A stretch of 50,357 nucleotides of DNA from a virus, in the IMG/VR virus record IMGVR_UViG_3300025137_000061, positions 1-50,357 of that record; one strand, 5' to 3'. This document shows, one piece after another, positions 13,646-34,695 of the stretch. The notes under the pieces are model-generated. The model was not told the DNA's origin and did no database searches. It worked only from the letters and a program-made list of their open reading frames with translations. Positions within the stretch are counted from its first letter, which is position 1. Every line of letters starts with the position of its first letter. The position numbers and the translations under genes are program-made.

Positions 13646-16600
13646 ATGGAACTAAAGAAGACATTCCTGGGAGGGAAGATGAACAAGGATCTTGATCAAA
13701 GACTTCTGTCTGGAGGTCAGTATGCGGATGCTTTAAACATAACCATAGACACGTCTGAGGGATCCAACATTGGGTCTGTGTCTAACTCGTTAGGTAACGG
13801 AATCGTGGGAGATATATCTTCAGTTTTATCTGGATATGTACCAGCAATAAACACGACAAACGCCAGAACTATAGGTGCGATAGCATACGAGCCCTTGAAC
13901 CTTATATACTGGTTTGTTTCATCTGATGAATATGACGCTATATTCGAGTACAACCAGATAGATAATACAACGGCACAGGTGCTTATATCCACAAAGAGTG
14001 GAGGCAACCCTAGTCAGTTAAACTTAAATCAAGAGTACCTAATAACTGGTGTTAATTATATACCAGGACACAAGCCAGAGTCTGGAGCACTTTTGTTCTG
14101 GACGGACAACCTAAATCCACCAAGAAAGATAAACATTGCAAGGGCAAAGCAATACTCTGTAAATGACCCTAGGATAGATATCGATATAGACGTGATACTA
14201 AGGCCACCATTAAAGGCACCAGCGATATACCCATCAACATCTTCTGATGTTCTTTCAAACAGCATGGAGGATAAGTTTTTGTACTTTGCTTACAGGTATA
14301 AGTATGTAGACAATGAGTACAGCTCAATGTCGCCATATTCAGGTGTTGCATTCAAGCCATCAAACTATCAGATCGATCCATTTACAGGTGACAACAACGC
14401 TATGCTCAACACATACAACGAGTGTAGGATTGTATTTGAGCTTGGAAATGAATTTGTTACAGAGGTACAGATACTGGCTTACGACCCAAGAAGTCTTAAT
14501 GTTAAGATTGTAAAGTCCATCGTAAAGGAGGATCTAATTATCAATGGTAATATAAATACATCTAGCTACACATTTAGCAACAACAAGATATATGCACCAC
14601 TACCTTCAGACCAGGTAACCAGGCTTTTTGACAATGTACCACTTCTAGCTCAGGCCCAGGAAGTCATAGGTAACAGATTGATATACGGTAACTACACACA
14701 GTTTAGAGATGTCGATCCCGTTGATTTTACTGTAACATACACCAGCAGGAATGCCTCTATACCAGCAGGAACTCCCTTAAGCACGTTCAGGACGGACAGG
14801 GATTACGAGGTAGGCATAATCTACGGTGATGACTATGGGCGTATGACCACAGCCCTAATAAGCGACAATAACTCTACATACATACCGTCAACAGAGTCCG
14901 ACAAGTCTAACAGTTTAAAGGTGCAGATTCAAAACACTCCACCTAGCTGGTCCACAAACTACAGGCTTGTGGTTAAGCAGGCAAAGAAGGAGTACTACAA
15001 CATATTTCCCTTATGGCTATATGAAAAAGATGTTTACAGATATTTCAGAATAAATGAGTTCGACAAAGATAAGTTTTCTGTAGGTCAGTACGTTATATTT
15101 AAGTCTACAGCTGCTGGTCCTACATTCTCAAACAAGAAGTATAAGATACTTGAGTTTGAATCTAAGCCTGATAATTTTGAGGATATAAGCGGAGCAGAGG
15201 CAGGTCTTTACTTTAAGATAAAGGTAGATAATATTGAGGAGCTATCAAACTCTCAACTTCAATCTTTTACAAATCAAGACGCATCCCAATCTACTACGAA
15301 TTCGAGTATTATTCCATATCCTGGCTATAATCAAAGACCAATGGAACATGGTACTATAGATTACATGGACACCACACATCCATACTATGGTCAGAACGAT
15401 TTAAACTCTTTAACGGTAACTGAGTTTACTGGCCCTAACAACTGGACTCAATTTGGCAAAGATATAAGGGTTACTGTAGAAATAGATGGTGTAAACCCAA
15501 CAACATTTAAGTACACTAGAAATGTAAATGGTTTAAGCGATTGGGAAGCGGAAACACAAAGCATAGATGGAGATATACCTCTTTATTATAATGCTATCTC
15601 TGTTGGATCACCACAAGCAGGTCAGATGTGCACGATAAACTTTAATCAGAATTCATCCTACACCATAGGTGACAAGTGGAAGATTATGTTTAGATCTAAC
15701 AGAGCTGATATAAGTAGAAATTATTTTCAGCCAGATGGAGGTTATTATCGTGGAGCTATACCTACGAATGGCACGGCTCCTCAATCATTTGAAGGTCAAG
15801 ATCCAAACGCAAGTATTCAATATCAAGGTCAGGTTGTTGTAAGAGGCACATCAAATGAAGATCATAATACAGAATTAAAGATTCAACCATTAGCAAGAAT
15901 AATAATAGGTATTAGTGTATTAAGTACAGGTGAGAGTAATATTCAGGAGTTTATATCTGATGGTCTTTATGATAATCTTGAGGAGTGGTTTCTTGAGTCT
16001 AACGCATACCTAGACTTTGAGCATCCATCATATACAGGAGTAAATGATGCTGAATCCGTGTGCTTTAGAAGGGCTAAATATCAGCCAGGATATAATTCTG
16101 AAGTAATGCAAGGTGTAAATGTAAATTATCTTTCAAATATAGGTCCTTCAAATACAAGGCTAGAATTTCCAATGAGGATGCTTATAAGAAATTATGGTAT
16201 TGGAACAGACGCACAAATAAGCAATACTTTTTCCAATATTGGATCTATTCAGGTTTCATTCTCTATTGAACAGTCTCCAAATCCATTGGTATGCGAGACA
16301 GATCCAAAGGAGGAGGATGTAGAAATTTATCATGAGGTTACCGACTCTTACGATATAGAGGGTGGCTTTCATCATGTTGGATGGGACTATGCTGATTTTA
16401 CAGATTTAAACACGGTATTCCCAAATCTAGCAATCGCTATTCCAGGTATTGCAAATAAAACAATCCTAGGTCCTTTAAATCCTGCGGCACCCCTGTCGAC
16501 AGACAAGCCTCATAACTTTTCTATAGGTCAACAGGTATACGTCTCAGGCACTTTTAGTGTCCCTGCTATAAATCCTAACACAGGAAATCCATATTACATA

Positions 16601-17755
16601 GTACTAGCTACTCTTAATCAGTACTGTGTTGTTGTAGACCTTGATTTTCCTGCAGTTGCTCCAGCAGAGCCAGGTATAATTTATAAGCAGTCCTGGGAGC
16701 AGGACCAGACAGCCACAAACCAGGGTGCATACATAGAGATAAATCAAGACACGGCAAAGAATAGTCAGTTCAACGCATTTTCCTTTGGGAATGGTGTTGA
16801 GTCAAACAGGATAAGGGACGACTTCAATGCCTCAGAAATGAAGTTCAGTCCTAGGGTTACCAGTATTATAGAGGACTACGAGAACGAGCGTAAGGAGGCA
16901 TCTCTGACATACAGCGGTGTGTTTAGGGGAGATACATCTATAAACAGACTTAATGAGTTTAATCTTTCACTAGCAAACTTTAAAGATTTAGATAGAGAGT
17001 TCGGTCAGATTGAAAAATTATACGCAAGAGATACTGATGTATTTGTACTTCATCAGGACAAGATAAATAAGGTTCTTTACGAAAAGAATGTATTGTTTGA
17101 TGCGGTTGGAGGTGGTCAGGTTGCCTCGATACCTCAGGTTTTGGGTAACGAGATACCGTTCCCTGTGGAGTATGGTATAAGTAATAATCCAGAGAGCTTT
17201 TCTACAAATGCAGGTGACATGTACTTCACGGATTCAAGGAGGGGTGCCGTGATTGGTATAGAAAGGGGTTCTGTGAACGAGATATCTTCTTTGGGTATGA
17301 CTGATTACTTTAGAGATGAACTTAAAGACAGTCCAAACAAACAGAAGCTTGGAGGGTTTGATCCTTACTCAAGCAGATATACCTTGGCAACGCAAAACAG
17401 TAGGAGGTCAAGACCATGCATATTGACACTCAGACCATCGGCAAGAATACTTGCTAGCAACACTGGAGGTTTTAATTTGTTTATGTTTAACATAGAGACA
17501 TCACTTTCATGGTCAATGGCAATTGTAGACACAGGATTTGGAACATCGTGGGTTAGTCCATCTACCACGACTGGGTATGGTGCTCAAAATATTTATGCGA
17601 ATATTGCAAATAATTTCACAGGTTCCACAAGAACTATTAACTTTGTTGTGACCTACTGCACAAGTCAGACTCAGATATTTACACTCACCCAGTCTGTAGG
17701 TAAGCCAATATCTGTAGATGTTGTGGTGGTAAATAAACCAGAAAATAGAAAATGA
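13646..17755 (+). CDS. Large tail protein, muzzle-like, with C-terminal BACON domain
   Basis: This 1369-aa tail protein begins KKTFLGGKMNKDLDQRLL with ADALNITIDTSEGSNIGSV, a start I associate with the large tail/muzzle proteins of crAss-like and marine Bacteroidota podoviruses. Near residue 1190 is YFTDSRRGAVIGIERGSVNE with GMTDYF, another marker of this family. Residues about 1275-1360 form a BACON-type domain: LSWSMAI, TSWVSPSTTTGYG, STRTINFVVTY, IFTLTQSV. BACON domains are thought to bind carbohydrate or mucin. The middle part (about 15280-16480) is more AT-rich than its flanks and may be an exchanged receptor-facing domain. The gene shares an ATGA overlap with the fibre gene. Confidence 0.7.
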   Translation: MELKKTFLGGKMNKDLDQRLLSGGQYADALNITIDTSEGSNIGSVSNSLGNGIVGDISSVLSGYVPAINTTNARTIGAIAYEPLNLIYWFVSSDEYDAIFEYNQIDNTTAQVLISTKSGGNPSQLNLNQEYLITGVNYIPGHKPESGALLFWTDNLNPPRKINIARAKQYSVNDPRIDIDIDVILRPPLKAPAIYPSTSSDVLSNSMEDKFLYFAYRYKYVDNEYSSMSPYSGVAFKPSNYQIDPFTGDNNAMLNTYNECRIVFELGNEFVTEVQILAYDPRSLNVKIVKSIVKEDLIINGNINTSSYTFSNNKIYAPLPSDQVTRLFDNVPLLAQAQEVIGNRLIYGNYTQFRDVDPVDFTVTYTSRNASIPAGTPLSTFRTDRDYEVGIIYGDDYGRMTTALISDNNSTYIPSTESDKSNSLKVQIQNTPPSWSTNYRLVVKQAKKEYYNIFPLWLYEKDVYRYFRINEFDKDKFSVGQYVIFKSTAAGPTFSNKKYKILEFESKPDNFEDISGAEAGLYFKIKVDNIEELSNSQLQSFTNQDASQSTTNSSIIPYPGYNQRPMEHGTIDYMDTTHPYYGQNDLNSLTVTEFTGPNNWTQFGKDIRVTVEIDGVNPTTFKYTRNVNGLSDWEAETQSIDGDIPLYYNAISVGSPQAGQMCTINFNQNSSYTIGDKWKIMFRSNRADISRNYFQPDGGYYRGAIPTNGTAPQSFEGQDPNASIQYQGQVVVRGTSNEDHNTELKIQPLARIIIGISVLSTGESNIQEFISDGLYDNLEEWFLESNAYLDFEHPSYTGVNDAESVCFRRAKYQPGYNSEVMQGVNVNYLSNIGPSNTRLEFPMRMLIRNYGIGTDAQISNTFSNIGSIQVSFSIEQSPNPLVCETDPKEEDVEIYHEVTDSYDIEGGFHHVGWDYADFTDLNTVFPNLAIAIPGIANKTILGPLNPAAPLSTDKPHNFSIGQQVYVSGTFSVPAINPNTGNPYYIVLATLNQYCVVVDLDFPAVAPAEPGIIYKQSWEQDQTATNQGAYIEINQDTAKNSQFNAFSFGNGVESNRIRDDFNASEMKFSPRVTSIIEDYENERKEASLTYSGVFRGDTSINRLNEFNLSLANFKDLDREFGQIEKLYARDTDVFVLHQDKINKVLYEKNVLFDAVGGGQVASIPQVLGNEIPFPVEYGISNNPESFSTNAGDMYFTDSRRGAVIGIERGSVNEISSLGMTDYFRDELKDSPNKQKLGGFDPYSSRYTLATQNSRRSRPCILTLRPSARILASNTGGFNLFMFNIETSLSWSMAIVDTGFGTSWVSPSTTTGYGAQNIYANIANNFTGSTRTINFVVTYCTSQTQIFTLTQSVGKPISVDVVVVNKPENRK
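15280..16480 (+). other. AT-rich block inside the muzzle-like gene
   Basis: Sampled lines inside this stretch run near 30-35 % GC, against about 43 % before and after it, and use more AAT, AAA, TTT and TAT codons. The protein here (about residues 545-945) is beta-rich with little charge. The frame is intact. This suggests replacement of an internal, probably host-facing, domain by recombination. The borders are approximate because composition was judged by eye. Confidence 0.5.
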
Positions 17756-20292
17756 AACTAAGTCAGTCTTATCAATACACAGGGAGTAGTGAGTTTACGT
17801 TTGAAAATGTATTACTTGGCCCTACAGGCATAGCTCTTTTTGATCAAAGGACAGGTATCGGAGGTGTTGATTTTATTCCATACCACGGATCTACGGTTAC
17901 TGTAAAGGCTGGAGACCCATCCACCCAGTACTTTGATTTTTCACCAAGTCTAAATAACAAGATATATTACCTGGTTACAGATCAGGAGTACTCAGAGTCT
18001 GATAGGGCTACAATAAAATCATCGGGTACGGCTATCAATGTACACTTCAACGGGACGGACTATCAGGGAGACTTTGTGTTTCAGAATCCCAATGATTATG
18101 AGTACCTATACCTTATGTGGGATTATGAGGATTCGATAGGAACGGGAACGGTATCATTTAAAGGCATAGTATCGTCAAGATCTATAGCCTTAGACTTAGG
18201 TACAGATATAGGACTGGCTGGTGTTAACTATCAGGCTGTAGACCTACCTGTAAGATTTAGAATTAGATGGAACAACACGGATGTTATAGACAGCGGATAC
18301 GTGGGGCTAAATTCAACAGCCAACTACAATGCACTGATAGCTGCAGGTGTAAGTGCATCTGACATAAAGCTTCAGTCTCCATATGATGGGACTGTTAATA
18401 ATGGCACAGGATCTCTTTTGTTTGACAAATTTTCATCATTAAATGACGCTCAGGTTGTTGTGGATTCTCCACTTGCAAGCTCTGTATGGATAATAAATAG
18501 AGTCATGCCTAGTCTAAAGTCGTTCTTTATAGATACAACTAACGGTACTACTGCAAATGTATGTACTCAGTGTCCAACCACACAGTACTACCATAATGGC
18601 ACAGGCCTACTTCCGACTCTTAATGACAGGATATACACCGCTTCAGACGGCTCCTCTCTTTATGACGGATCATCCGCATTTCACATGATAGACACCGTGA
18701 CGTGCACGGTACCTAGTTCTACAGGAAAGTCATATGTAGGTGTAGATGCATCAGGAAATGTCACATCAATAGATCCATGTGATTGCCCTGAGTTCGCTGT
18801 ACCTTTTATATATCAGGAGGATATAGTTATAAACTCATTGGAAGATGTTAATATACCTATAAGCGTATATGGAAATCCGACATCTTTTACAGTGGTAACT
18901 ACATGTTTAGAGTACCTACTAACTGGAGGTGGTTCGTCAACATTATTTACATACACAGACTGCGACTCAAATAGTCAGACAATAACCGTATCTGCATTTC
19001 AAGCAATAACGGTGTGTGCAACCTCTGCCCCTACCATAATTCGTGGCGATGGAACTATTTCTTCAGGCAAGCCTTGTTTAAGTTCAATATTTCCAACAGC
19101 TCTTTCTTTTGATAATGGAGTTATATCTGGAAGGTCTGTGAAAGAGTTATCATTCTCTTTCACAATCAACGCAACTAATTGCTTTGGAACAAGTGCTAAT
19201 AAGACTATAAATGTAGATGTAATATCCTCATCAGACAGAAAACCATTTTTGATGGATACAACTAACTTTACAACCGAATCATCTAACGCTTGCAGTGTTA
19301 CACCTTCACTTACCAAGATGTATTTCGATGGACCCAATCCTGTTCCAACGCTTAGAGATAGAGTGTTTGATTACAGTGATAGAAATGGTTTTATACCATA
19401 CACTGGTGGAGACAAGTGGTATTACGTGGATAACTCTCAGCAGGTTATCAGGGTAGATGACAATGGATATGTTTCAGACGTTTATGCATGCCCTGGTACA
19501 ACTACGACAACTACCACTACTACTACAACTACAATACCAGCTGTAGGTAATTATTATACAGCTAAACTTTGTGCTGAACCCACAACCGTAGTTACTCTTT
19601 TAGATGCAACATCTGTAGCTATAGTGGTTGGAAATGTTGTCAAGACTACAGACGGAAACTGTTGGGAGATAACAGGAACATCATCAGGATCATACCCATA
19701 TTATTTAATGCAAAACCCCGTAGTAATATATGCAGACTGCACGACTTGTACTGGTACAACTACAACCACAACAACTACAACAACTACAACAGCACCAGTC
19801 ATTACTTCCTTCAGTATGGATGGAACTGCCCAGACAACAGATTTTGCTGCATGTTCACTTACCCCCTCTCTTTCAACATTCTACCACAACGGTAGTGGCA
19901 CGGTTCCTGCAGTTAACGACTTTGTCTACACGGACGCCTTAGGGACGACTTTGTTCGATGGGGTATTTAAGTGGTACTATATGGATAATGGGGGTGCTGA
20001 TTTTGCTATACAGGTCTCAAACACTGGACAGGTACTAGAGATAGGTAGATGTTCAGGCATAACAACCACCACCACAACAACAACGGTTGCTAAGACTTAC
20101 TACACATACAAGACCTGCAATGATGGCATTCTTGCAGGGAAGCTATTCTTCTTGGGACCAAAGGTTCTTGCAGGAGGAACGCCTGTAAAGGCCTCTGACG
20201 GAAACTGCTACAAGATACATGTTTTATCTACAGCTGGAGGACCAGAGCTTGAGGTGTTGTTTGTATATAACTCCTGCTACGAGTGTCAGTAA
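17752..20292 (+). CDS. Modular tail fibre or adhesin with poly-threonine linkers
   Basis: The 846-aa protein starts with beta-rich segments (1-255). It then carries three copies of a module A of about 85 residues (near 260-346, 499-582, 682-768) with shared marks: D-T/G-T..., Cys, Tyr-x-(H/D)-(N)-G, P-(T/A)-(L/V)-(N/R)-D, WYY(V/M)DN, and a closing Cys. Two copies of module B (596-668, 780-846) have YYTxKxC, DGNC(W/Y)(E/K)I and a final CxxC. Between 350 and 495 lies an Ig-like part (SFDNGVISG, NATNCFGT) of the He_PIG type. A2, B1, A3 and B2 are separated by threonine runs of 12, 12 and 8. The last gene bases overlap a glycosyltransferase gene. Most likely a receptor-binding fibre with O-glycosylated or stiff linkers; glycosylation is inference. 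Confidence 0.7.
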   Translation: MKLSQSYQYTGSSEFTFENVLLGPTGIALFDQRTGIGGVDFIPYHGSTVTVKAGDPSTQYFDFSPSLNNKIYYLVTDQEYSESDRATIKSSGTAINVHFNGTDYQGDFVFQNPNDYEYLYLMWDYEDSIGTGTVSFKGIVSSRSIALDLGTDIGLAGVNYQAVDLPVRFRIRWNNTDVIDSGYVGLNSTANYNALIAAGVSASDIKLQSPYDGTVNNGTGSLLFDKFSSLNDAQVVVDSPLASSVWIINRVMPSLKSFFIDTTNGTTANVCTQCPTTQYYHNGTGLLPTLNDRIYTASDGSSLYDGSSAFHMIDTVTCTVPSSTGKSYVGVDASGNVTSIDPCDCPEFAVPFIYQEDIVINSLEDVNIPISVYGNPTSFTVVTTCLEYLLTGGGSSTLFTYTDCDSNSQTITVSAFQAITVCATSAPTIIRGDGTISSGKPCLSSIFPTALSFDNGVISGRSVKELSFSFTINATNCFGTSANKTINVDVISSSDRKPFLMDTTNFTTESSNACSVTPSLTKMYFDGPNPVPTLRDRVFDYSDRNGFIPYTGGDKWYYVDNSQQVIRVDDNGYVSDVYACPGTTTTTTTTTTTTIPAVGNYYTAKLCAEPTTVVTLLDATSVAIVVGNVVKTTDGNCWEITGTSSGSYPYYLMQNPVVIYADCTTCTGTTTTTTTTTTTTAPVITSFSMDGTAQTTDFAACSLTPSLSTFYHNGSGTVPAVNDFVYTDALGTTLFDGVFKWYYMDNGGADFAIQVSNTGQVLEIGRCSGITTTTTTTTVAKTYYTYKTCNDGILAGKLFFLGPKVLAGGTPVKASDGNCYKIHVLSTAGGPELEVLFVYNSCYECQ
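19498..19533 (+). repeat. Poly-threonine linker 1 (12 Thr codons)
   Basis: Twelve successive threonine codons lie between module A2 and module B1 of the fibre. The codons mix ACA, ACT, ACG and ACC, so the DNA is not a perfect trinucleotide repeat. This points to selection for the amino acid run rather than recent slippage. Confidence 0.95.
19756..19791 (+). repeat. Poly-threonine linker 2 (12 Thr codons)
   Basis: Twelve threonine codons lie between module B1 and module A3, again preceded by a Cys-Thr-Gly or similar turn. The codons are ACA, ACT and ACC in no fixed order. Confidence 0.95.
20062..20085 (+). repeat. Poly-threonine linker 3 (8 Thr codons)
   Basis: Eight threonine codons (ACA, ACC, ACG) lie between module A3 and the last module B2. 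Confidence 0.95.
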
Positions 20293-21203
20293 AATACAAT
20301 CTCAGATTTATATCTGCACAGCCAGCCACGGATTACTATTCATGGCAGGTTGAGGTGTACCTAAACAACTTCATATCACTGGGATATAAAGATATAGATG
20401 TCGTGTGTGGCTTTCAGGATGAGATACCTGAGTCATGGGGTAATCTTGTTTCAAGGTATAATGATGCCGCTAACTTTTACTTTTATGAGGACACGCTTGG
20501 GGCTGTTAAATACATACCAGCGATACAGGCACATATACTTAAGAAGCATTTTGATGAGAATCCAAGCGATGACGCATTCTTCTTTCACGACTCGGACTTC
20601 ATTTTCACAAGGCATCTTGATTTCAGTCCATATTTGAATGACGATAACTGGTACTTCTCTGACACTACTAGCTATATAGGACACGACTATATAGTGAGCA
20701 AGGGTGAGGAGGTTCTGGATGCTATGTGTGATATAGTTGGAATATCAAAGGATGTAGTTAAAAAGAATCAAAAGAACAGCGGAGGTGCACAGAAGCTTAT
20801 GAAGAACCTAAGCTCTGAATACTGGACGAAGGTAGAGAGTGACAGTATAAGGCTGTATGACAAGCTTATAACCATGCAGCATGTCAAGAAAGACAACGAT
20901 CCTTACGGAATACAGTCCTGGACATCTAGCATGTGGGCCGAGCTATGGAACGGATGGTTGTTTGGTAACAAGGTAGTTGTCCCTAAGGAGTTTGATTTCT
21001 GCTGGGCGACATGTCCTGTAGAGAGGTGGGATGAGACATACTTCTTTCACAACGCAGGTGTTCCTAACAACAAGCAGGGTATGTTCTACAAGGCTCAGTA
21101 TGCAGACAGGCTGCCATACAATGAGGATCTTGAAATAAACCCACACAGGTGTTCATACAGGTATTACACGGAGATGAAGTCGGTGGACAGTTGTTTACTT
21201 TAA
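20283..21203 (+). CDS. Putative glycosyltransferase (GT-A like)
   Basis: This 306-aa protein has an N-terminal Rossmann-like start (SWQVEVYLNNFISLGYKDID, VVCGF) and a DxD-type metal/sugar-nucleotide motif in FFFHDSDFIF near residues 101-107. Later marks are SGGAQKLMKN and YFFHNAGV. These fit a GT-A glycosyltransferase that moves a sugar from an NDP-sugar donor. Its start overlaps the stop of the poly-threonine fibre gene by 10 bp, so the two are translationally coupled. It is followed by a virion protein gene. The likely substrate is the fibre itself, by analogy with O-glycosylation of Thr-rich stretches; a host glycan target is the alternative. No membrane segment is seen. Confidence 0.65.
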   Translation: MSVKYNLRFISAQPATDYYSWQVEVYLNNFISLGYKDIDVVCGFQDEIPESWGNLVSRYNDAANFYFYEDTLGAVKYIPAIQAHILKKHFDENPSDDAFFFHDSDFIFTRHLDFSPYLNDDNWYFSDTTSYIGHDYIVSKGEEVLDAMCDIVGISKDVVKKNQKNSGGAQKLMKNLSSEYWTKVESDSIRLYDKLITMQHVKKDNDPYGIQSWTSSMWAELWNGWLFGNKVVVPKEFDFCWATCPVERWDETYFFHNAGVPNNKQGMFYKAQYADRLPYNEDLEINPHRCSYRYYTEMKSVDSCLL

Positions 21204-21221: not shown

Positions 21222-21995
21222 ATGGCAACTATAACATACTCTATATTTTCAAAGGGATGGACATCCTTCTGGTCATATTCACCAGACTGGATGATCGGTC
21301 TAAATAGTAGCTTCTATTCATTCTCAGGTGGAGATCTTTACAAGCATAATGACTCAACGGTCCCTAGAAATAACTTCTACGGTGCTCAACATAAGTCAAC
21401 CATCACGACGGTGTTTAATGATGATCCTATGCAGCAAAAAATGTTTAAGACGCTGTCGCAGGACTCAAACAAGCCATGGAAGGCTATAATAGATACGGAC
21501 ATAAACACGGCAGAGATGGCGGCAAGCTATTTCAACCAGAAGGAGGACGAGTGGTTTGCTTATATAAGGAGGGTTGACAATACTATAGACCTAAAGGCTG
21601 TATCTACACAGGGTATAGGAAATGCCACCTCTGTAAATAGTACAGATCCAGATGCGGTGGTTGTAACATTTGCATTTAACATAAATAACCCCATAAGCAT
21701 AGGAGACAGCATTTACAAAATGGGTATCGTAGATCCAGCTGCAGACCCAGTTATAGCTGACGGAACATTAACTAGCATAGGCGTGGTCACAGCTATGACA
21801 GCTACAACTCTAACCATCGATGCAAATCCAGGAACTATACCATTAATAAGTGATTTTTTGGTAGGAGTTAAGAACAGTCAGGTAGAGTCATACGGAAGCA
21901 GAGGTTTCTTTATGTCTGTAAAGCTTGAGAACGAGGACACAACACAGGTTGAAATGTTTTCAATCGGAAGTTCTATATTCAAAAGTTTTCCTTAA
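21222..21995 (+). CDS. Virion structural protein (257 aa), SKGWTSFWSY type
   Basis: The N-terminus (IFSKGWTSFWSYSPDWMIGL, then YSFSGGDLYKHN) is a pattern I associate with virion proteins of crAss-like and marine podoviruses. The middle is beta-rich and the end carries GSRGFFMSVKLEN. It lies among tail and internal virion genes. The exact place in the particle is unknown. Confidence 0.65.
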   Translation: MATITYSIFSKGWTSFWSYSPDWMIGLNSSFYSFSGGDLYKHNDSTVPRNNFYGAQHKSTITTVFNDDPMQQKMFKTLSQDSNKPWKAIIDTDINTAEMAASYFNQKEDEWFAYIRRVDNTIDLKAVSTQGIGNATSVNSTDPDAVVVTFAFNINNPISIGDSIYKMGIVDPAADPVIADGTLTSIGVVTAMTATTLTIDANPGTIPLISDFLVGVKNSQVESYGSRGFFMSVKLENEDTTQVEMFSIGSSIFKSFP

Positions 21996-22004: not shown

Positions 22005-22406
22005 ATGGAAGTTAGGTTCTTGACAGGCGATGATTACGAGACGTTATCTTCGTGGTGGAAGGACTGGAGATGGACGGCTCCGCCCAAGGACATGCTACCA
22101 GAGAATGGACTTGGAGGTGTTATGATTCACAAGGATGGTAAAGAAATTTGTGCAGGATTTGTATACTTCACAAACTCATCAGCCGCATGGCTTGAGTTTA
22201 TAGTGTCAAACTTTCACTACAGAGAGGACGACAGACAGGAGGCTATAAGGCTCCTTATAAACGTCCTGACAGAGATGATAAAGGAGAAGGGTTCTTACAG
22301 GTATATATATACCTCTCTTAAGAGCAAGAGCTTAATAGACAGATACAGCGAGTGTGGATTTCAAATGGGAAGCACCAACTGCAACGAAATGATAAAGGTA
22401 TTATAA
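22005..22406 (+). CDS. GNAT-family N-acetyltransferase
   Basis: This 133-aa protein has the GNAT order: N-terminal substrate strand-helix (VRFLTGDDYETLSSWWKDW), central strand AGFVYFTNSSAAWLEFIVSN, the helix that follows the acyl-CoA site (EAIRLLINVLTEMIKEKG), and a C-terminal half with LIDRYSECGFQMG. It would move an acetyl group from acetyl-CoA to an amine. Such enzymes occur inside tail operons of related phages without a known target. It lies 9 bp after a virion gene and 1 bp before an internal protein gene, so it belongs to the late operon. Confidence 0.7.
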   Translation: MEVRFLTGDDYETLSSWWKDWRWTAPPKDMLPENGLGGVMIHKDGKEICAGFVYFTNSSAAWLEFIVSNFHYREDDRQEAIRLLINVLTEMIKEKGSYRYIYTSLKSKSLIDRYSECGFQMGSTNCNEMIKVL

Positions 22407-24699: not shown

Positions 24700-27600
24700 A
24701 TGGCTGAAGACAATCCGATAGAAGGCTTGGATCCAAATCAATCGGCATTCGAGCCGATGTTGGATATGATGGATCAAGAGACACCAGAGGACCTAAGCAG
24801 GACCACCACAACAACGACTCTCTATATCTCTGGCGATCAGACACAGATAGATCAGCCTAGAGTTAGTACAACTACAACTATGGCTCCAGTGGAGACTTTG
24901 GATATAGTGTCACAGTTTAGACAGTCTAATCCAGAGGTAAAGCTTGGCGATGTAAACAAGGTTATACCTAACGCAAGCTTTGAGGAGAGGATGCAACTTC
25001 TTTTTGATTACCCAGATCAGTTCTCTGCAGATATAGAGTACAATAACAAGATAAACAGCTATGTCACACAGTTAAAAGATAAGGGATATAAAGACGATCA
25101 AATACTTTCATACCTAGAGCAACAGAAGGAGGGTACAAAGTCAGATCTAATGACCAACTTTCCAGACCTTTTTAATGTTAAGTCTATAAAGAGAAAGGAC
25201 AATATAATTAAGGCTCTAGAGAGCGACAATATTTCATACAGCAAACTATTAAAGTTTGGATCTGAATCAAAACTAAAGAATGAATATCCTGAGTTTGCTA
25301 ACCTTATAGATCAGAAGAAGAAGAACGAGAAGATTCAGAAAGAGATAAAGGTTGAAAATAAGAAGATAGATGCTAATATTGAGGCAGAAAAACAAGCAAT
25401 AGAAAGACAGTTAGAGACTGGTAAAAACTTTATAGGTCAGGACATGTCTCCTATAGATCAAGAAGCTGCTAGAAAAAGACTCAGAGAAATTGAAGGGGAG
25501 CAGACGCTGGCTGACCTTGATGCAGGTGATCCATTTCAGGAAGACACGTCAAGGACGGATATAGGAAAAATTTCATACAAGCAAAAGCCTGTCACAGGGT
25601 TTGAGTTTGAAAGAATAAATGAGTTCAATGTAGAACCAATAATTAAAGACGTTAGATTTGTTGATCAGAAGCAGGTAGATCAAGAGTTAGAGCTACTTAA
25701 TCAACTGAACACAAACATCAAAGCCACAGGAGGTAAATCTCTTAGTGACGAGCAGATAAGAGAGGTATATGTAGACGGAACAAAGCCGTTTAATGAGAAC
25801 TACAAGGAGTATGATGATCAGCTGTGGAACACCGTCTCTGGTATTGTATCTACGCAGCCTGTCGTGGATCTAAATGATGAGTTCTTTGAGAGACATGATA
25901 CCACAAGGGATGAGTTCATAAACAAAAGAAAGCTTATACTATCAAGCGGACTTTTTAACACTCAAAAATTAGGAGATACATACTATACCGAGGAAGAGTT
26001 TCAGGCTATGTATAATAGGGCGTCTGAAAAATTAATCAATGAGTATGGATCCACTATAGGTACATATGAAAAAATTACAGGGACAAATCTTAGAGAGAAC
26101 CCTGAGCAGTTTTATGACGAGGCGAGAAAGAGTAGTTCTTTATACATGTCAGACATAGATGAAGATATAGTGATAGGAGACTCTGAACAGACATCTAAAA
26201 ACCTAAGGAAAAGATTTGGGTTTCTTCCTTACGGATCAAGAGATGAGTCACAGAATTATTTGGAGACAGAGGGATTTAGATTTAGCTATGACGGAGACAA
26301 CCTGGTTATACAGTCCACTATAACACCAGAAGGTAAAAACACTCCAGAATTACTGAATGGTATAGAAATAAACATGAATGGATCTGATGTAAGTGCAAAG
26401 ATTAAAAACTTTATGTCTAAAGGAATAGTCACCGACGATATCAGAGACGTTATAGATGAATACTCTAGAGGAGAGGGTAGGTTTAATGAAAAATTTAACG
26501 ATCCAATGAGGGCGTCTATAGACTTTAGCAACTATATACTTTCAAAGCCTTATGTGTTTGGAGATGCAAATGGTTTTGCCACAGATGGATATGGCCAAGG
26601 ATTTTTATTTGGACTTATACCTATGGGGGGAGGCAAAGATAAGTCAAAGTTCATGAGAAATATGTCTGTGATAAACACTCAGATAAATGCACTTAAGGCG
26701 AAGGATCCTATCTCTAACCAGTATCTTATAAATAACCTAAACAAAAATATTCAATACGCACAGTATGTAGAAGACCAAAAGGCTCCAGATTTAACCAGCC
26801 TAGGACTTGCCGCTGCTGCTGGACTTACTGAGACATTTTCAGGTATAACTGAGGGTGTTGTAGACTTAATAATAGACATTCCATTTGTTCCTGTATCTAG
26901 CTCACTGTCAGAGGATGAGGTTAACATGCTAAAAGAAAGTGGGCTTGAGGAGTATCAGATTTTAGATATACAGAACAAGCGTATAAAGGATGAGGTTGAG
27001 TACGGTATAGACGAGTGGATAAATAACACGACAGCGGTTACAGACAAGTCTATAGCAGACGCAGGACTTACCTATGAATTAATTAAGACGATGATTCACA
27101 GCATCAGCACTGGTATGATAGTTGGATTTAATCCATCACTTGTTCCTGTCGCATTCGGACTTCAAACCACAGCAAGGGTGGAGAACGAGCTAAAAGACAG
27201 CGACCTTAGCAACTTTGAGAAGAGAATTATATCTTGGCAAATGGCCACATATGAGGGTATACTTGAGAATTTTGGTCTTCAAACCGCACTATCGCCAGGT
27301 AAGTCAATGCTATTTAGGTGGGTTGCAGCTAGAGCTTTAAAAAACTTACCAAAGGATGCAAGTCTCCATGCAATAGAGGCGAGCATGAAGTACACGATGA
27401 AGGGGCTTGGTGCAAGGACAATGTTAGGTATACTTGAGGGTGGTTCTTTTGAGGCACTTACGGAGGTAGGTCAAGAGGGCGTAGAATTTACAGAAAAGAA
27501 TATTGTAAACATGCTCCTAGGTAAGGAAGTGTTTAAGAACATGCCCGACATCACGACGGAAAAGGGAGCTAATGAATTTTTAAATCAGCTTGGAAAGGCA

Positions 27601-30600
27601 GCATTATTAGGTGGATTATCTGGTGGTGGTATATCTACCATCAGCGGCACAACAAACCTTCTTGTCAATGGTTTTCAATTGAAGGGCTTAAATAAATCAT
27701 TTGAGAATCAGTACAATGTAATAACCAGCGAGGAAGGTAGAGCTATTGCTTTGGCACAGATAAACTTAGCCTACCAATCTAAGCAGATAACTAAGGAGGA
27801 GGCCAATGCAAGAATAAAGGCAATGAATGATGCCTATCCATTGATGATGGAGATACCTGCCGAACTGTCTTCAGGTCAGAAGAGACAGGCATATGATTTA
27901 ATGCTAGAGAGAAAGGCATTAGAGGCAGAGGTAAAAGACAAGGACAAGAACCTGGTCGTCAAGCAGACGGAGAGGATCGCAGAGATAAATAATGAGTTAC
28001 AACAAATAAGCAAGACAGATGCCATTCAAGAGCAAGAAACAAAGAAGGAAGTGCTACCAGATGAACAGTCCGAAATGGGACTGCAAGATGTGGGACAGCG
28101 AGACACCCAAGGGGAAGAAGCTACCGAAGTACAGCAAGAACAATTAGTAGAATCAGTAGATGATCAAGGAAGAAGTGCTAAACCAGGAGCAAGATTGTTC
28201 AATGATCCTAATCCAGAGACGTCAGATATATCTGCTAAGTATAAAAAAGAAAAGGGTATAGAAACAACTGCTGGTGAAAAGATAACTGAGCTTGACACTA
28301 GCAAATCTATGGAAATAGCTGATGCTTATGAGGCTATGGAAAACAATCCTAATGATCCAGAAGTAAAAGAAGCATACGAATCTCTTGCAAAAGAAACTAT
28401 AGATCAGTACAAAGCTATGACTGATGCTGGATATGAGATTGAGATTTACGAGGGCAAAGGAGAGCCATACGCTAATTCTCAAGAAATGATAGATGATCTT
28501 ATTAATAATAAGCACATGTATATTTTTTCTACAGAACAAGGTTATGGAGAAGCTGGAATAACAGATCAGCAGCGTCAAGAAAATGCTATGCTTGCAGAGA
28601 CTGAGTTCGTAGATAAAAATGGCAAGCCTCTATTAATCAATGATTTATTTAGAGGGGTACATGATTTCTTTGGACATTCAGAAAGGGGTAATGGTTTTGG
28701 AGCTAAAGGAGAGGAGAACGCATGGGATGTTCATGCTAGAATGTTTACCGATAAAGCAAGAAGAGCGATGACAGCTGAGACAAGAGGTCAAAATTCTTGG
28801 GTAAACTTTGGTCCTCAAATGAGAGATAGCAACGGTAATCTTTTAAAGAAAGGAGACCCTGGATACAAGAGTGCTAGAGAAAGAGATTTTGCTCCACAAA
28901 AAATAGGTCTGTTGCCAGAGCAGTATTCTGAAATAACAGAAACTCCCACTACTGAGGTTACTGAAGAAGTGGTTGAAAAAACTCCTGTTAAAGAGGCACC
29001 AAACAAGGAGGCGAAGGGTATACGTAAGCAGATAGAGAACGCAAGGAAGGCAATAGCTAAGATCCTACCAGGTGTGGAGATCGTGGTTCATGAGAACGAG
29101 GATTCATACAGGAAGGCGACTGACGAAACGGACAGCAAGAAGCAGTCAACTCGTGGTGAGTACAATTCTAAGACCAAGAAGATACACATAAACATATCCA
29201 AGGCGAACAACAGGACGGTAGCTCACGAGGTCTTCCATGCCATATTAATTAACAGGTTAAAGACAGACAAAGCAACTCAGGATATTACTGAGCGTATGAT
29301 CAAGGCCTTATCAAAGAATCTTGAGGGTATGCCTGAGGTTAAGCAGGCACTCGACGCATTCGCTGCCAACTATGACGAAAACATACAGAGCGAGGAGAAG
29401 CTTGCCGAGCTGGTCGGTATACTGGCAGGTAACTATGCACAGATGAACAAGCCTAGCCAAAGTCTGATCAAGAGGTTTCTAGATCGACTGGCCAAGATGT
29501 TCGGAAGAAAGTCATTCACTGACGGTGAGGTGGTTGACCTGTTGAACACAATAGCAGGAAAGGTTGCAGTCGGTGCGGAGATCAGTGATGTGGATATTAA
29601 GGTTATTCCTAAAGATAAAACAGCAGAAATAAAGGAGGCAAATAAAAGATTTCAAGCTGACTTTACCGATCTTAAATCTGGAGTTACTTATAGCTTTGAT
29701 AAAAACACAAATGAATTTAAAAAGATAGAACAAAAATACATAACAAGAAATAAATCCATTTCTGATTTTAATAATGTATTTATGATTTTACATCAGCCTG
29801 ATTCAGCGTTTTCTGGAAAAATTAGTAAAAAATTATCTGATGGAAGTGAAATATTAGTTGAGGGCAAGGGAGGTATATTTTATCCAATTAAGTTTCATGA
29901 GAAAGGATACTTTTGGGCAAGCACATCCAAGGCTGCTCAAGCAATGGCTGAGTCTATGAATAAGGCAATTAATAAGGATGGTAAAATATACATGGCATTA
30001 ACAACTGCTCCGACAAATAAAGTTTTATCTAGTACAAATGCAGCTAATGGTGTTATGAATTTATTTATATCATTATCAAAGAATCCAAAGCTTAAGATAA
30101 CAGGTATTGAATCTATACTCATAAAGTCTTACAACAAAGCATTTGGTGATAAGATTGATAGCTCTAATAATTTAGATCAAATAGTAAAAATAATAGAGGA
30201 AAAATTAGGAGCTGAAAAAAGTAGTTTTGATGATAGAAAAACCTTTTCAACATCAATCATAGATTCTGTAGTTAAATCTATTCAAAGAAAAAAATCAAAC
30301 CAGGAAGCACAGAATAGTTTGGCTGATTTCTTTGGAGAGGGTATGATGGCAGAGGATCTTGTAACAAAGTTTAAAAAAGGATCTAAAATTAGTAAGGCTA
30401 ATCTTACAGAAGCAGTATCTCAAATGCTTACAGAGCCAATGTTAAGAGATGGAAAATCTAAAACTCAAAATGGATCAATATATGCCATATTAGAAATTGA
30501 CGGAGAGGTTGAAGCTGTGGATGCAAAATCTGAAACGGATCATGAGTCATATCCAAAGGCTATAAAATCAAAGGGTGACAGTAAAACAACACTACATTTA

Positions 30601-33600
30601 TTAACTGATAGAGTAAAATGGAATAATGTTACAATTGATCCTGATACAGGAAAAACAGTTAATAAGTCAGGAAAAGTTAAAAGTAAAGATCCTAAAAAGA
30701 AAGGAACACTTGTAGAAAGATGGACTCAAATAATGAGCCCAAGTGCAGGTATTACTACACAGGGGGTGAAAATAGATACATCTGAGGTCACCACCCCAGC
30801 CAAGCGTAAGCAGAAGGACGACGGGCCTTCAAGAGAAAGGGTTGATAAGATTATAGATGGCATAGTTCAAAAGCTGGAGGATAGAAGACTAAAGAAGCTA
30901 GAGAAAGATAGAACTAGGGGGCCTTTGACTGCAAAAGAAAAGTTAGATGCGACCATATCTTACCTGAAAGGAAGCAAGCTTTATCAAGAGTCTACAGATC
31001 TAGAAAGAGAACAGATTGTTCGTCAGCTTACCGAGGATCTAGGTATTAAGATCAAGAAGGCTCCGTCTGTAAGAAAGGTTCTAGGTAAGAAGAAGAGAAC
31101 AAAGGTTGTAGTAGACCAGCTGGCAGAGTACAAGAGACAGATAAAGGAATGGAACAAGTCGGCAAGGCTTGCAAAGAAGGACCTAAATACAAGACGTAAG
31201 GAGCTTGCAAAGCTTGTAAAGTCTATGGCTAGACAGGGTATAATGACCTCAAAGCAGGCAGGTATACTTGTGGAGAGATCTAACATTGTAAACCTAGAAA
31301 ACGAGGAGATACTCAACAGGTTCTTAGACTATGCAGAGAAGGTGTTCAAGAATGCAGAGTATGCAGAGAAACTTAGACAGGCCTCTTCGATAAGAAAAAA
31401 GATAAAGAGAAACCTTAAGAAAGATAACCAGGCAGAGGTTATAGCCATGGCTAAACAGTTTGCAGAGATAGATCCACAGATGGTTGAGGTTCTTGACCTT
31501 TACATGGACTATGCAGAGCAGATGAATGACGCACTTAAATCATCAAGGATAAAGGGTGGAGAGGTAGACATGCGACAGGCTGCAAACCTTGCAGAGATAG
31601 CTGAGTTCTACCAGGGTGCCATAGATAATCAAAACAAGATCCTAAAGAAGGAGATGATCGCCAAGTATCAGGACCTGAATCTAGACGAGAATATGTCTAT
31701 TAATGAGATTAAGGAAATAGTAGAGGCAATAGAGTCGGGAGATGTGAAGCAAGGACTTGAGGCAGAGGTGATGTCATTCCTAAGTAAAAGATTCGGAGTT
31801 ATGTCTGCGATAGCTAAGGACATGATCAAGAGAAAGATCAACCCATTTACTGGCGAGACGATAGACCTGACAGACCATCAGATAGATATGGTGTCTAGGC
31901 TTATAGATGCAGACCTGTCTACGATGGACGTGAAGGACGCAATAAAGTTTGTAGAGTACATAGACAACTTCATAACAAACGAGATAACAAGCGGACTTGA
32001 GTCAGCCATAAGTATATACGAGGGTGTTCAGTCAATCAGAAACCTTTCAAGAAAGGGTATCAGAGCACGTATGCCTAAACTAGGATTTAGTGAAAATATT
32101 GGTAAGATATGGAACCAGTACCTTACAAGCATTCCAGTTCTATTCGACAGAATATTTCAAGGCACAAACAGGGGGCTTAAGGTCATGAAGGAAATCGGTC
32201 TTCAGGACATCATAAACGGCAAGGCTAAAAAGATAAGGGTTCATAAAAATATTATGGATCAGTATAAAAAAGAATTTATAGAGGGCGACAAGCTATTCAT
32301 GGAGGCAGATAATGTGTACGAGAGAGGTATGATTGCGTTCATGAGTAGAAATCTTGTGGGTACAGTATCCGAGCAGAAGGCTGAGTTTGAAAGACGGAAG
32401 AGACTTGTACTTGAGAGTATAGAGTACCTTGAGAATAGCGGTAACAAGCAGGAGAGAAAGAAGGCAGAGGTATACAGAGAGGTATATGATAAGCTTGATA
32501 TAGCGTCCGCAAAAGACATCAACTCAATCAGAGAAAAGGCGTCAAAGAAAAATATTGATGCGGTGTCATGGTGGACAGATCAGTGGGCAGACAAGTATAA
32601 CGACCTGGCAGATGTCAGTCTATCAGTACACAACACGATACTTGGAACGGATACAAACTACACTCCAGATAAGTACAAGACTCTGAGTAGCAGGGTTGAT
32701 ATAATTAAGGAAGATTTAGCTAGATCTGTAGAAGAAACAGGGGCATTTATGTCTGGAACTCATATAGACAGAAACAAGTCTGGGGTTCTTATGGAGACCA
32801 CGAGGCCTAAGGTACTTCCAAAGAATAGGTACGTTAGTTTTGACTTTGATATGGACAACTCTCTGTCGATGGATAAGGCACTCACAGATATATACACATC
32901 CGCAGCGATACAAAAGTTTTATGGTGCCACAAGGTCGTCTTCGTTTGAAGAGGTGTTTGGTGACACATCCTCAATGGTACTTGAAAGGGTATCAGACTAC
33001 ATACGAGACCTAAAGGGTAAGGGAGAGTACATGAGCAACAAAGAAATCTCAAAGATCTTTAACACGGTTGCTAAGTTTGGTGTCTCAAAGGCACTGGGCG
33101 GTATGTCTCAGGCTCTTAAGCAGACCATACCTGTAATGATGAACACCATTACTAATGCAGGAAGGTTTGACTTCGCAAACAAGTCTGACCTGAACTGGGT
33201 TAACAACTCAGACATGGCAATCGTTAACAGAGGAATAGAGTCAGAGACAGCGATTGAATCTGCAGATGCAAGTGTTGAGGTAAATCTTGACAACATAAGA
33301 ACAATAATGAGGGGTGTAGATAAGCTCCAGGGACTATACCTGAAGGCCTTCCTACAAGGGCCTGATGTATACGTGGCAAAGTCATCATTTATAAGCTACT
33401 ACAAGCAGCACATGCAAAGGAATGGGCTAAGTACAGAGCTTGTTGAGGGTGAGTACAACCAGGATGCACTTGAGTATGCACAGATGATGGTAGACAGGCA
33501 GCAGAACGTATCAGATCCTGCGCTTGCAGGTACCTTCCTATCTAAGGCTGGTAATGTAGCAATAGTTCGAAAGGTTATAGCACCATTCGCATCCTTCGTT

Positions 33601-34695
33601 ATAAACCAGAAGGGTAGAATGATGGCAGACCTAAGAGTTTTGAATCCAACAAACACAACACCTACAAACGAGGACAAGAAGGCTGCAGCAAGATCGCTTG
33701 CTGGACTTATGGTTGAGCTTACAGTATTCCACACACTATCTGCAGTAATAAGAGAAGGATTTAAAGGTGCAGCTAAAGGTTTGTTTGGGGACGACGATGA
33801 GGATAAAGAGGAGAAAGAATGGGGATCTCTTGAGTCAAACAAAAAGCTATGGGATGCATCAAGCTATGCCTTCTCAAGCGTTGTAAAAGACGTACTTTCA
33901 CCGTTCCCAGCTGTTGGTGACGGACTTGTTTCAAAAGGTCTTAATATGCTTCTAGAAAATTTGGATGTAAATCTTGCAGATGAGAATGATGTACAAGCAG
34001 CTATAGATGAAGAGAATGAGCTGAGGCTTCTTAAGAGAAAGGATCCTATGACAGAAAAGGAGAAGAAGGAGCTAAGAGAAAAGGTTATGGAGCAGGGGAA
34101 GATCTCTGTGTATGAGGATGATGCAATACTCAAAACACTTGGTGTGTTTGATATAGGTCCGAAAGCCATGATGGATCTAAATGATGCCTATATGCTTTAT
34201 AAGGATGGAGAATACGAAGATAAATATGGCAACAAGAATTATTTACTGAAGAGAGACAGAGAAGGCCTTGGATCTATTGTACTTGGAAAGTTCTTTACAG
34301 TAACTGGGCTTGCTCCTAAGGATGTAGGTGACATATCAAGGTACGGTATGAAGGAGATAAAGAAGAAGTCGATATCTGAGAAGCAGTACGAGAAGTATCA
34401 GGAGGTTAAGAAGGATTTAAAAAGAAATCCTACAGAGGCCGAAGAATATCTTATAGTAAACAGCAGAAGAAAAGCCAAGGATATAACGGACGACATAAAC
34501 AGAATAAACAAATACTTCGAGGGTCTCACTCTTGATCAGATGAAGGAGTTTGTAGAGACAGAGAAGTACGGACTGTTTAGGGGATCATGGGCTATCAGAA
34601 ACATAAAGGAGGGCAAGACAGCTAAAGAGCTTACCAAGGAAAGAAATATACCAACGGAAAGTAAGAGTATGTTCTCTACTAGAAAAGGTGAGTAA
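24700..34695 (+). CDS. Giant polyvalent virion protein (3331 aa) with metallopeptidase site
   Basis: This protein fills a fifth of the window and is probably packed in the head and injected. In order: two short Thr runs (35-40 and 57-60); a helical part; a hydrophobic region (about 700-1020); a domain near 1310-1370 with GVHDFFGHS and ETRGQNSWVNFG, seen in phage polyvalent proteins; a zincin-type site AHEVFH (His1509, Glu1510, His1513) with EEKLAELVGILAG about 55 residues later as possible third ligand; an AT-rich domain (about 1634-2020); long helices (2050-2650); and a C-terminal part with APFASFVINQKGRMM and a hydrophobic helix (about 2995-3017). The zincin could process virion or host proteins. 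No RNA polymerase could be shown. The gene end overlaps the opposing phosphoesterase gene. Confidence 0.75.
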   Translation: MAEDNPIEGLDPNQSAFEPMLDMMDQETPEDLSRTTTTTTLYISGDQTQIDQPRVSTTTTMAPVETLDIVSQFRQSNPEVKLGDVNKVIPNASFEERMQLLFDYPDQFSADIEYNNKINSYVTQLKDKGYKDDQILSYLEQQKEGTKSDLMTNFPDLFNVKSIKRKDNIIKALESDNISYSKLLKFGSESKLKNEYPEFANLIDQKKKNEKIQKEIKVENKKIDANIEAEKQAIERQLETGKNFIGQDMSPIDQEAARKRLREIEGEQTLADLDAGDPFQEDTSRTDIGKISYKQKPVTGFEFERINEFNVEPIIKDVRFVDQKQVDQELELLNQLNTNIKATGGKSLSDEQIREVYVDGTKPFNENYKEYDDQLWNTVSGIVSTQPVVDLNDEFFERHDTTRDEFINKRKLILSSGLFNTQKLGDTYYTEEEFQAMYNRASEKLINEYGSTIGTYEKITGTNLRENPEQFYDEARKSSSLYMSDIDEDIVIGDSEQTSKNLRKRFGFLPYGSRDESQNYLETEGFRFSYDGDNLVIQSTITPEGKNTPELLNGIEINMNGSDVSAKIKNFMSKGIVTDDIRDVIDEYSRGEGRFNEKFNDPMRASIDFSNYILSKPYVFGDANGFATDGYGQGFLFGLIPMGGGKDKSKFMRNMSVINTQINALKAKDPISNQYLINNLNKNIQYAQYVEDQKAPDLTSLGLAAAAGLTETFSGITEGVVDLIIDIPFVPVSSSLSEDEVNMLKESGLEEYQILDIQNKRIKDEVEYGIDEWINNTTAVTDKSIADAGLTYELIKTMIHSISTGMIVGFNPSLVPVAFGLQTTARVENELKDSDLSNFEKRIISWQMATYEGILENFGLQTALSPGKSMLFRWVAARALKNLPKDASLHAIEASMKYTMKGLGARTMLGILEGGSFEALTEVGQEGVEFTEKNIVNMLLGKEVFKNMPDITTEKGANEFLNQLGKAALLGGLSGGGISTISGTTNLLVNGFQLKGLNKSFENQYNVITSEEGRAIALAQINLAYQSKQITKEEANARIKAMNDAYPLMMEIPAELSSGQKRQAYDLMLERKALEAEVKDKDKNLVVKQTERIAEINNELQQISKTDAIQEQETKKEVLPDEQSEMGLQDVGQRDTQGEEATEVQQEQLVESVDDQGRSAKPGARLFNDPNPETSDISAKYKKEKGIETTAGEKITELDTSKSMEIADAYEAMENNPNDPEVKEAYESLAKETIDQYKAMTDAGYEIEIYEGKGEPYANSQEMIDDLINNKHMYIFSTEQGYGEAGITDQQRQENAMLAETEFVDKNGKPLLINDLFRGVHDFFGHSERGNGFGAKGEENAWDVHARMFTDKARRAMTAETRGQNSWVNFGPQMRDSNGNLLKKGDPGYKSARERDFAPQKIGLLPEQYSEITETPTTEVTEEVVEKTPVKEAPNKEAKGIRKQIENARKAIAKILPGVEIVVHENEDSYRKATDETDSKKQSTRGEYNSKTKKIHINISKANNRTVAHEVFHAILINRLKTDKATQDITERMIKALSKNLEGMPEVKQALDAFAANYDENIQSEEKLAELVGILAGNYAQMNKPSQSLIKRFLDRLAKMFGRKSFTDGEVVDLLNTIAGKVAVGAEISDVDIKVIPKDKTAEIKEANKRFQADFTDLKSGVTYSFDKNTNEFKKIEQKYITRNKSISDFNNVFMILHQPDSAFSGKISKKLSDGSEILVEGKGGIFYPIKFHEKGYFWASTSKAAQAMAESMNKAINKDGKIYMALTTAPTNKVLSSTNAANGVMNLFISLSKNPKLKITGIESILIKSYNKAFGDKIDSSNNLDQIVKIIEEKLGAEKSSFDDRKTFSTSIIDSVVKSIQRKKSNQEAQNSLADFFGEGMMAEDLVTKFKKGSKISKANLTEAVSQMLTEPMLRDGKSKTQNGSIYAILEIDGEVEAVDAKSETDHESYPKAIKSKGDSKTTLHLLTDRVKWNNVTIDPDTGKTVNKSGKVKSKDPKKKGTLVERWTQIMSPSAGITTQGVKIDTSEVTTPAKRKQKDDGPSRERVDKIIDGIVQKLEDRRLKKLEKDRTRGPLTAKEKLDATISYLKGSKLYQESTDLEREQIVRQLTEDLGIKIKKAPSVRKVLGKKKRTKVVVDQLAEYKRQIKEWNKSARLAKKDLNTRRKELAKLVKSMARQGIMTSKQAGILVERSNIVNLENEEILNRFLDYAEKVFKNAEYAEKLRQASSIRKKIKRNLKKDNQAEVIAMAKQFAEIDPQMVEVLDLYMDYAEQMNDALKSSRIKGGEVDMRQAANLAEIAEFYQGAIDNQNKILKKEMIAKYQDLNLDENMSINEIKEIVEAIESGDVKQGLEAEVMSFLSKRFGVMSAIAKDMIKRKINPFTGETIDLTDHQIDMVSRLIDADLSTMDVKDAIKFVEYIDNFITNEITSGLESAISIYEGVQSIRNLSRKGIRARMPKLGFSENIGKIWNQYLTSIPVLFDRIFQGTNRGLKVMKEIGLQDIINGKAKKIRVHKNIMDQYKKEFIEGDKLFMEADNVYERGMIAFMSRNLVGTVSEQKAEFERRKRLVLESIEYLENSGNKQERKKAEVYREVYDKLDIASAKDINSIREKASKKNIDAVSWWTDQWADKYNDLADVSLSVHNTILGTDTNYTPDKYKTLSSRVDIIKEDLARSVEETGAFMSGTHIDRNKSGVLMETTRPKVLPKNRYVSFDFDMDNSLSMDKALTDIYTSAAIQKFYGATRSSSFEEVFGDTSSMVLERVSDYIRDLKGKGEYMSNKEISKIFNTVAKFGVSKALGGMSQALKQTIPVMMNTITNAGRFDFANKSDLNWVNNSDMAIVNRGIESETAIESADASVEVNLDNIRTIMRGVDKLQGLYLKAFLQGPDVYVAKSSFISYYKQHMQRNGLSTELVEGEYNQDALEYAQMMVDRQQNVSDPALAGTFLSKAGNVAIVRKVIAPFASFVINQKGRMMADLRVLNPTNTTPTNEDKKAAARSLAGLMVELTVFHTLSAVIREGFKGAAKGLFGDDDEDKEEKEWGSLESNKKLWDASSYAFSSVVKDVLSPFPAVGDGLVSKGLNMLLENLDVNLADENDVQAAIDEENELRLLKRKDPMTEKEKKELREKVMEQGKISVYEDDAILKTLGVFDIGPKAMMDLNDAYMLYKDGEYEDKYGNKNYLLKRDREGLGSIVLGKFFTVTGLAPKDVGDISRYGMKEIKKKSISEKQYEKYQEVKKDLKRNPTEAEEYLIVNSRRKAKDITDDINRINKYFEGLTLDQMKEFVETEKYGLFRGSWAIRNIKEGKTAKELTKERNIPTESKSMFSTRKGE
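28200..28970 (+). other. AT-rich domain block 1 in the giant gene
   Basis: This block codes for the domain with GVHDFFGHS and ETRGQNSW (about residues 1167-1424). Sampled lines run near 30-38 % GC, against 45-52 % in the peptidase block behind it. It ends in a Thr/Glu linker (TETPTTEVTEEVVEK). It looks like a separately acquired domain cassette. Confidence 0.55.
29600..30765 (+). other. AT-rich domain block 2 in the giant gene
   Basis: This block (about residues 1634-2022) runs near 30 % GC in sampled lines and uses AAA, AAT and TTA codons heavily. It codes for a mixed alpha/beta domain with SGKISKKLSDGSEILVEGKG and YFWASTSKAAQAMAESM. GC content rises again sharply near 30770. I do not recognise the domain. 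The sharp borders suggest a domain cassette inserted in frame. Confidence 0.55.

Follow-up and report, generated by a model that had tools for sequence, protein, structure and literature searches.

Virion self-glycosylation has been described in mycobacteriophages. Che8, Corndog and Myrna glycosylate their own virions with phage-encoded glycosyltransferases (GTs) that decorate the capsid and tail-tube proteins, and this glycosylation shields the particles against antibodies (Freeman et al., 2023, as cited in PMC12363180 and PMC11256854). At the locus described here, a modular tail fibre (or appendage) protein with three pure threonine tracts is followed by a GT gene of the family phrog_4417, and it is very likely that the two form a virion self-glycosylation pair, in which a phage-encoded enzyme O-glycosylates Thr tracts exposed on the particle. 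No description of this GT/poly-Thr pairing was found in the open literature (subscription papers and preprints lay outside the search), and no biochemical, mass or cryo-EM evidence for glycosylation of the tracts was found.

Judged by its gene content, the window (the whole analysed stretch of 50,357 bases) is a crAss-like phage, because the next gene 3' of the GT encodes a muzzle C-terminal domain of the crAss type (PF25729; E 2e-16, which passes the curated cut-off) and matches to terminase, portal and structural PHROGs are present. The fibre gene lies in the tail gene cluster, between the gene for a 1369-aa virion protein and the GT gene (Table 1), and the 10-bp overlap of the fibre and GT open reading frames reported in the initial annotation is reproduced by their coordinates. 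Two genes 3' of the GT, the tail cluster also contains a small GNAT-like acetyltransferase gene (window 22005-22406; phrog_17252, weak Pfam match to Acetyltransf_4). Further downstream, the N-terminal region of a 3331-aa protein (window 24700-34695) contains a T6 run and a T4 run (DLSRTTTTTTLYIS...RVSTTTTMAP), and the T6 run is also found in the relatives L010 and L012-L014.

Table 1. Features of the fibre–GT locus and its surroundings (window coordinates).
Feature	Position	Strand	Basis
Upstream virion structural protein, 1369 aa, phrog_14478	13646..17755	+	PHROG match; context
Modular tail fibre/appendage protein, 846 aa, proposed glycosylation substrate	17752..20292	+	phrog_13374, phrog_21885; AlphaFold2 model
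Module A1, about aa 258-345	18523..18786	+	Module alignment
Module A2	19240..19497	+	Module alignment
T12 tract 1, aa 583-594	19498..19533	+	Sequence
Module B1	19546..19752	+	Module alignment
T12 tract 2, aa 669-680	19756..19791	+	Sequence
Module A3	19801..20055	+	Module alignment
T8 tract 3, aa 771-778	20062..20085	+	Sequence
Module B2	20092..20289	+	Module alignment
phrog_4417 glycosyltransferase, 306 aa, GTG start, predicted GT-A fold	20283..21203	+	Profile match, alignment, model
DxD motif D103-S-D105 in HDSDF, predicted metal/nucleotide-sugar site	20589..20597	+	Sequence, alignment
crAss-like muzzle C-terminal domain protein (PF25729)	21222..21995	+	Domain match; context is tail gene cluster
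T6 run near N-terminus of 3331-aa protein; possible further substrate	24802..24819	+	Sequence

The alternation of A and B modules around pure Thr runs of 12, 12 and 8, first read from the sequence, holds up against the open reading frame, the run positions and the module scores. The C-terminal third of the fibre is arranged A2-T12-B1-T12-A3-T8-B2, and a third A copy (A1) lies N-terminal to this tract-linked part. A2 and A3 align with a score of 144 (shuffled mean 25.5, maximum 45), A1 scores 107 with A2 and 105 with A3, and B1 and B2 score 72 against a shuffled maximum of 43; the similarity of A2 to B1 stayed at chance level in the comparison with shuffles. The AlphaFold2 model of the fibre (pLDDT 77) consists of beta-rich modules, and its disordered or low-confidence linkers are exactly the three Thr tracts (581-597, 669-682 and 769-779). 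A fold search returned only diffuse Ig-like matches with a TM-score of about 0.1.

The tract codons are mixed (16 ACA, 9 ACT, 5 ACC and 2 ACG). Compared with three relatives that are 71-82% identical to the window, they carry 35 synonymous changes and 1 non-synonymous change, whereas the other Thr codons of the same fibre carry 98 and 76 (Fisher p 3e-7). In the tracts of 12 relatives, Thr makes up 354 of 383 residues and Ser, the commonest substitute, 17, so that 371/383 are one or the other. Given the 35:1 ratio, Thr itself, or at least a hydroxyl, is kept in the tracts by strong purifying selection, and the DNA repeat is not merely tolerated. DNA slippage as the origin of the tracts was ruled out by the mixed codons and the synonymous divergence.

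The GT aligns with the phrog_4417 profile from end to end (E 1e-68; residues 8-302 cover positions 2-292 of its 293), and all 47 aligned divergent members match the profile too; the family is annotated as "unknown function", and neither Pfam nor NCBIfam gave a match for the GT. The GT-A-like enzyme with an HDSDF motif that had been proposed from the sequence is well supported: the motif is present, D103 and D105 are invariant in the 47 homologues together with Q170, W213 and H256, and a confident AlphaFold2 model (pLDDT 96, pTM 0.92) predicts a GT-A fold closest to GT8/GT24 enzymes. A Foldseek search with this model returned 179 PDB chains at E<=0.001, of which the best 50 are all glycosyltransferases; the best neighbours are UGGT (GT24), GT8 proteins including pneumococcal GlyE, glycogenin, the Skp1 galactosyltransferase and LgtC. 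Against known GTs the TM-scores reach only about 0.5, a level that supports the fold and not a family assignment. At the sequence level the GT does not qualify for GT8 or GT24 (CAZy), as no Pfam model matches it, and a PDB sequence search with the GT profile gave no significant match, only spurious ones to geminin. Fold neighbours of the GT8/GT24 type take UDP-sugars as donors, mostly with retention of the anomeric configuration; a UDP-sugar donor is inferred from them for the phrog_4417 enzyme, and a retaining mechanism is likewise an inference. The metal-binding DxD and C-terminal His pattern of LgtC is matched by the invariant D103, D105 and H256. The acceptors of several fold neighbours include sugars (LgtC) in addition to proteins (glycogenin), and the Thr tracts could be sugared with the GT only extending a glycan whose first link to Thr is made by another (host) enzyme. 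This is unlikely, since the structural genes usually include no other recognisable GT and it is this gene whose presence follows that of the tract (see below), and since an initiating host enzyme would be needed in bacteria as different as Bacteroidota and Bacillota hosts.

The pairing extends well beyond the window. A tblastn search with the GT identified 72 annotated phages of Lactobacillus, Enterococcus, Staphylococcus, Lactococcus, Chryseobacterium and Arcanobacterium. The initial annotation had proposed a search for co-occurrence of poly-Thr proteins and this GT family as a check, and pure Thr tracts were found near the GT in 14/14 annotated records examined, within the fetched flank in 74 of 80 IMG/VR loci (in the gene directly upstream of the GT in 69/80) and in 37/38 prophage loci of bacterial genomes from many Bacillota genera. 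A tract was defined as an uninterrupted run of six or more Thr, or as eight Thr/Ser residues of which six are Thr. The 38 prophage loci came from a search of genome contigs with a Bacillota GT profile; searching genome contigs with the window protein as the query found nothing. After clustering of the GTs at 60% identity, 29 of 31 clusters had a tract in the same locus. Among 397 genomes of one Bacillota order, an ACN7 run lies within about 3 kb of the GT in 5/5 GT-positive genomes, and such a run occurs anywhere in the genome in 61 of the 392 GT-negative ones. Regular occurrence of the GT family in phages without Thr-rich proteins, which would have refuted the initial annotation, was not seen apart from a few exceptions.

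In the annotated phages, the tract usually lies at the extreme C-terminus of the major capsid protein, the tail-tube protein or both, or else in a small gene just upstream. For instance, the tail tube of phiFL1A ends ...NGTTTTTSTTTTTTSSTTTTTTTQASSK, the capsid and the major structural protein of Lactococcus phage 1706 end ...KTTTTTTTTTHHD and ...TTTTTTTTTTHHD, and in R9.1 the capsid ends ...KTTTTTTTSHV and another structural protein, whose position suggests a tail tube, ends ...ETTTTTTTTTSHV. One phage may carry tracts on capsid, tail-tube and connector-size proteins, and where two proteins of one phage are tailed, their end motifs are identical in 12 of 25 cases, against a mean of 1.7 after shuffling. 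The GT directly follows the tract-bearing gene in many phages, so one exchange could move both, and GT and tracts might thus be a recombination cassette brought together by linkage or hitchhiking, with (ACN)n DNA as the recombination site and no enzyme–substrate relation. We give this reading very little credence. Some tracts lie on genes 2-3 kb from the GT, beyond unrelated genes, the same pairing is seen in phages whose structural proteins are unrelated, and the synonymous divergence within tracts argues for selection on Thr and not on DNA.

The coupling of the GT and the Thr tail was followed by presence and absence in two tail-tube families, whose cores without the tails were used as queries for homologues with and without the GT. 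A tail was scored as five Thr in a row near the C-terminus; this threshold was chosen after the tails had been seen, because some SHA-ended tails have only T5. Loci too short to judge were left out, as was the GT-positive locus L278, in which the tail-tube frame is apparently broken at its end. GT and Thr tail agree in 41/41 loci of the first family (11 with both, 30 with neither; Fisher 3e-10) and in 43/43 of the second (18 and 25; Fisher 2e-12), giving agreement in 84/84 loci and a Thr tail in 0/55 GT-negative homologues. On the trees, the two characters change 7 and 5 times, always together (about 12 independent switches). Independent pairs on supported branches agree in 4/4 and 3/3 cases (7/7), each set alone being too small to reach significance in a sign test. 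When only loci flanked by 6 kb or more on each side are counted, 25/25 with the GT have a tract versus 1/36 without it (p 3e-16, uncorrected for relatedness). In the crAss-like phages, GT and tract occur together for 63 complete fibres. L475 is the single complete fibre without a tract whose downstream sequence is long enough to judge, and it lacks the GT as well. A Flavobacterium phage homologue of the N-terminal half of the fibre has neither tracts nor the phrog_4417 GT, which is in line with the rule as a single case. In Enterococcus phage phiFL2A (L044 8001-8862), the GT frame is interrupted and unannotated and the tail-tube Thr tail is intact; phiFL1A has a whole GT gene, so that the two form a natural comparison pair.

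The converse does not hold. Poly-Thr without the GT is common, and a two-way rule in which every poly-Thr protein has a phrog_4417 GT was rejected, as the GT is absent from most large contigs with T8 tracts (present in 5 of 28). The GT-less cases must be due to other proteins, other GTs or plain linkers, and in these loci no consistent candidate for another adjacent DxD protein was found. GT members without a tract in reach comprise L105, L123, L126, three contigs under 6.5 kb and L172. In L123 (10004-14439, a 142-kb virus contig), the member adjoins other glycosyltransferase-like genes, and in L172 (7931-13235, an Erysipelotrichaceae chromosome) it lies in a bacterial polysaccharide gene cluster, both without Thr tracts. 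Because these two sit among glycosyltransferase-like genes, some GT members may act on other acceptors. Three further loci are recorded here. A T10 run on a 105-aa protein (L178 8486-8803), in a 39-kb phage contig that lacks the GT and has a Thr-less tail tube, is possibly a remnant after GT loss. In a quite different virus (L036 6950-11724), the neighbours of the GT are a radical-SAM-like gene and, 1.4 kb downstream, a gene for a predicted membrane protein rich in T/S. A short contig without a phrog_4417 GT (L360 1093-4431) encodes an 1107-aa protein with Thr tracts and a contractile-tail-sheath-like start (VSPGVYTSEVD); other GTs may serve such proteins.

These exceptions bear on whether the Thr runs are simply unmodified flexible spacers, with the GT modifying a host surface glycan (superinfection exclusion) or some other acceptor. 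Many poly-Thr phage proteins without the GT, the place of L172 among bacterial polysaccharide GTs and the undemonstrated chemistry of tract modification are compatible with this. It remains improbable, as it predicts neither tail-tube tails that switch with the GT in 84/84 loci nor tracts on three kinds of protein of one phage, and as a tail at the extreme C-terminus joins nothing and is therefore no linker. The earlier proposal that the enzyme decorates the Thr linkers of the fibre is thus supported by tract co-occurrence and by the lack of tails on GT-negative tail tubes, without biochemical evidence; its restriction to fibres does not stand, as in Bacillota phages the tract is found at capsid and tail-tube C-termini.

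In the self-glycosylation reading, the phrog_4417 protein would be a soluble, metal-dependent GT-A enzyme that uses a host nucleotide-sugar inside the infected cell and places the sugar directly on the Thr hydroxyls of the tracts; this transfer, like display of the tracts on the surface, is inferred. The tracts would serve as a portable acceptor tag on virion-surface proteins, located in the tail fibre linkers of the crAss-like phage and in the C-terminal tails of the major capsid, tail-tube and/or small structural neighbour protein of Bacillota phages. The benefit can only be guessed at and may be particle shielding, solubility, adhesion or protease resistance. The suggestion of the initial annotation that the linkers become stiff arms, which may mask the fibre or help it through host capsule, is likewise conjectural. 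A broader claim, which we favour with some reserve, is that phrog_4417 founds a new GT family initiating O-glycosylation directly on Thr runs in the bacterial cytoplasm, the poly-Thr tail being a self-sufficient tag attached independently by unrelated phages to capsid, tail-tube and fibre proteins. A function is hereby proposed for a family of "unknown function" present in hundreds of phage contigs and also in isolates whose hosts are easy to work with (Lactococcus 1706 and bIL285, Enterococcus VPE25 and phiFL1A, and Lactobacillus phages). What began as a guess about the fibre of a single locus is widened to a general tag on virion proteins, under a simple rule by which sequence alone would indicate the glycosylated phages and their modified residues, and which can be tested in standard laboratory phages. 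Sugars on the particle matter for the immune recognition of phages, for particle stability and for adsorption, and a one-enzyme, one-tag O-glycosylation pair would be a useful tool.

Among known systems, C-terminal Ig-like decoration domains (Big_2 and others) occupy the same C-terminal position on tail-tube homologues as the Thr tail, and some GT-negative tail-tube relatives have a Big_2 domain, a known kind of virion surface decoration, where the tail would be. These domains are folded, whereas the Thr tail is a low-complexity tag that, unlike them, occurs only with the GT in both families tested. The GT8/GT24 GT-A enzymes (UGGT, glycogenin, GlyE and LgtC) are the closest solved folds to the phrog_4417 GT, although identity is about 10% and the acceptors differ. 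In Che8, gp110 is GT25-like (PF01755) and gp108/109 are GT2-like; no homology of phrog_4417 to gp108-110 was detectable (hhalign probability 0.1-0.5%; different PHROGs). Unlike phrog_4417, the Che8 GT genes form a 3'-end cluster far from the structural genes, and neither the capsid protein nor the tail-tube protein of Che8 has a Thr tail. As far as sequence comparison can tell, the proposed phrog_4417 system would work like the mycobacteriophage one without being a member of its enzyme families. Virion self-glycosylation as such is already known from mycobacteriophages, and what would be new is the GT/poly-Thr variant.
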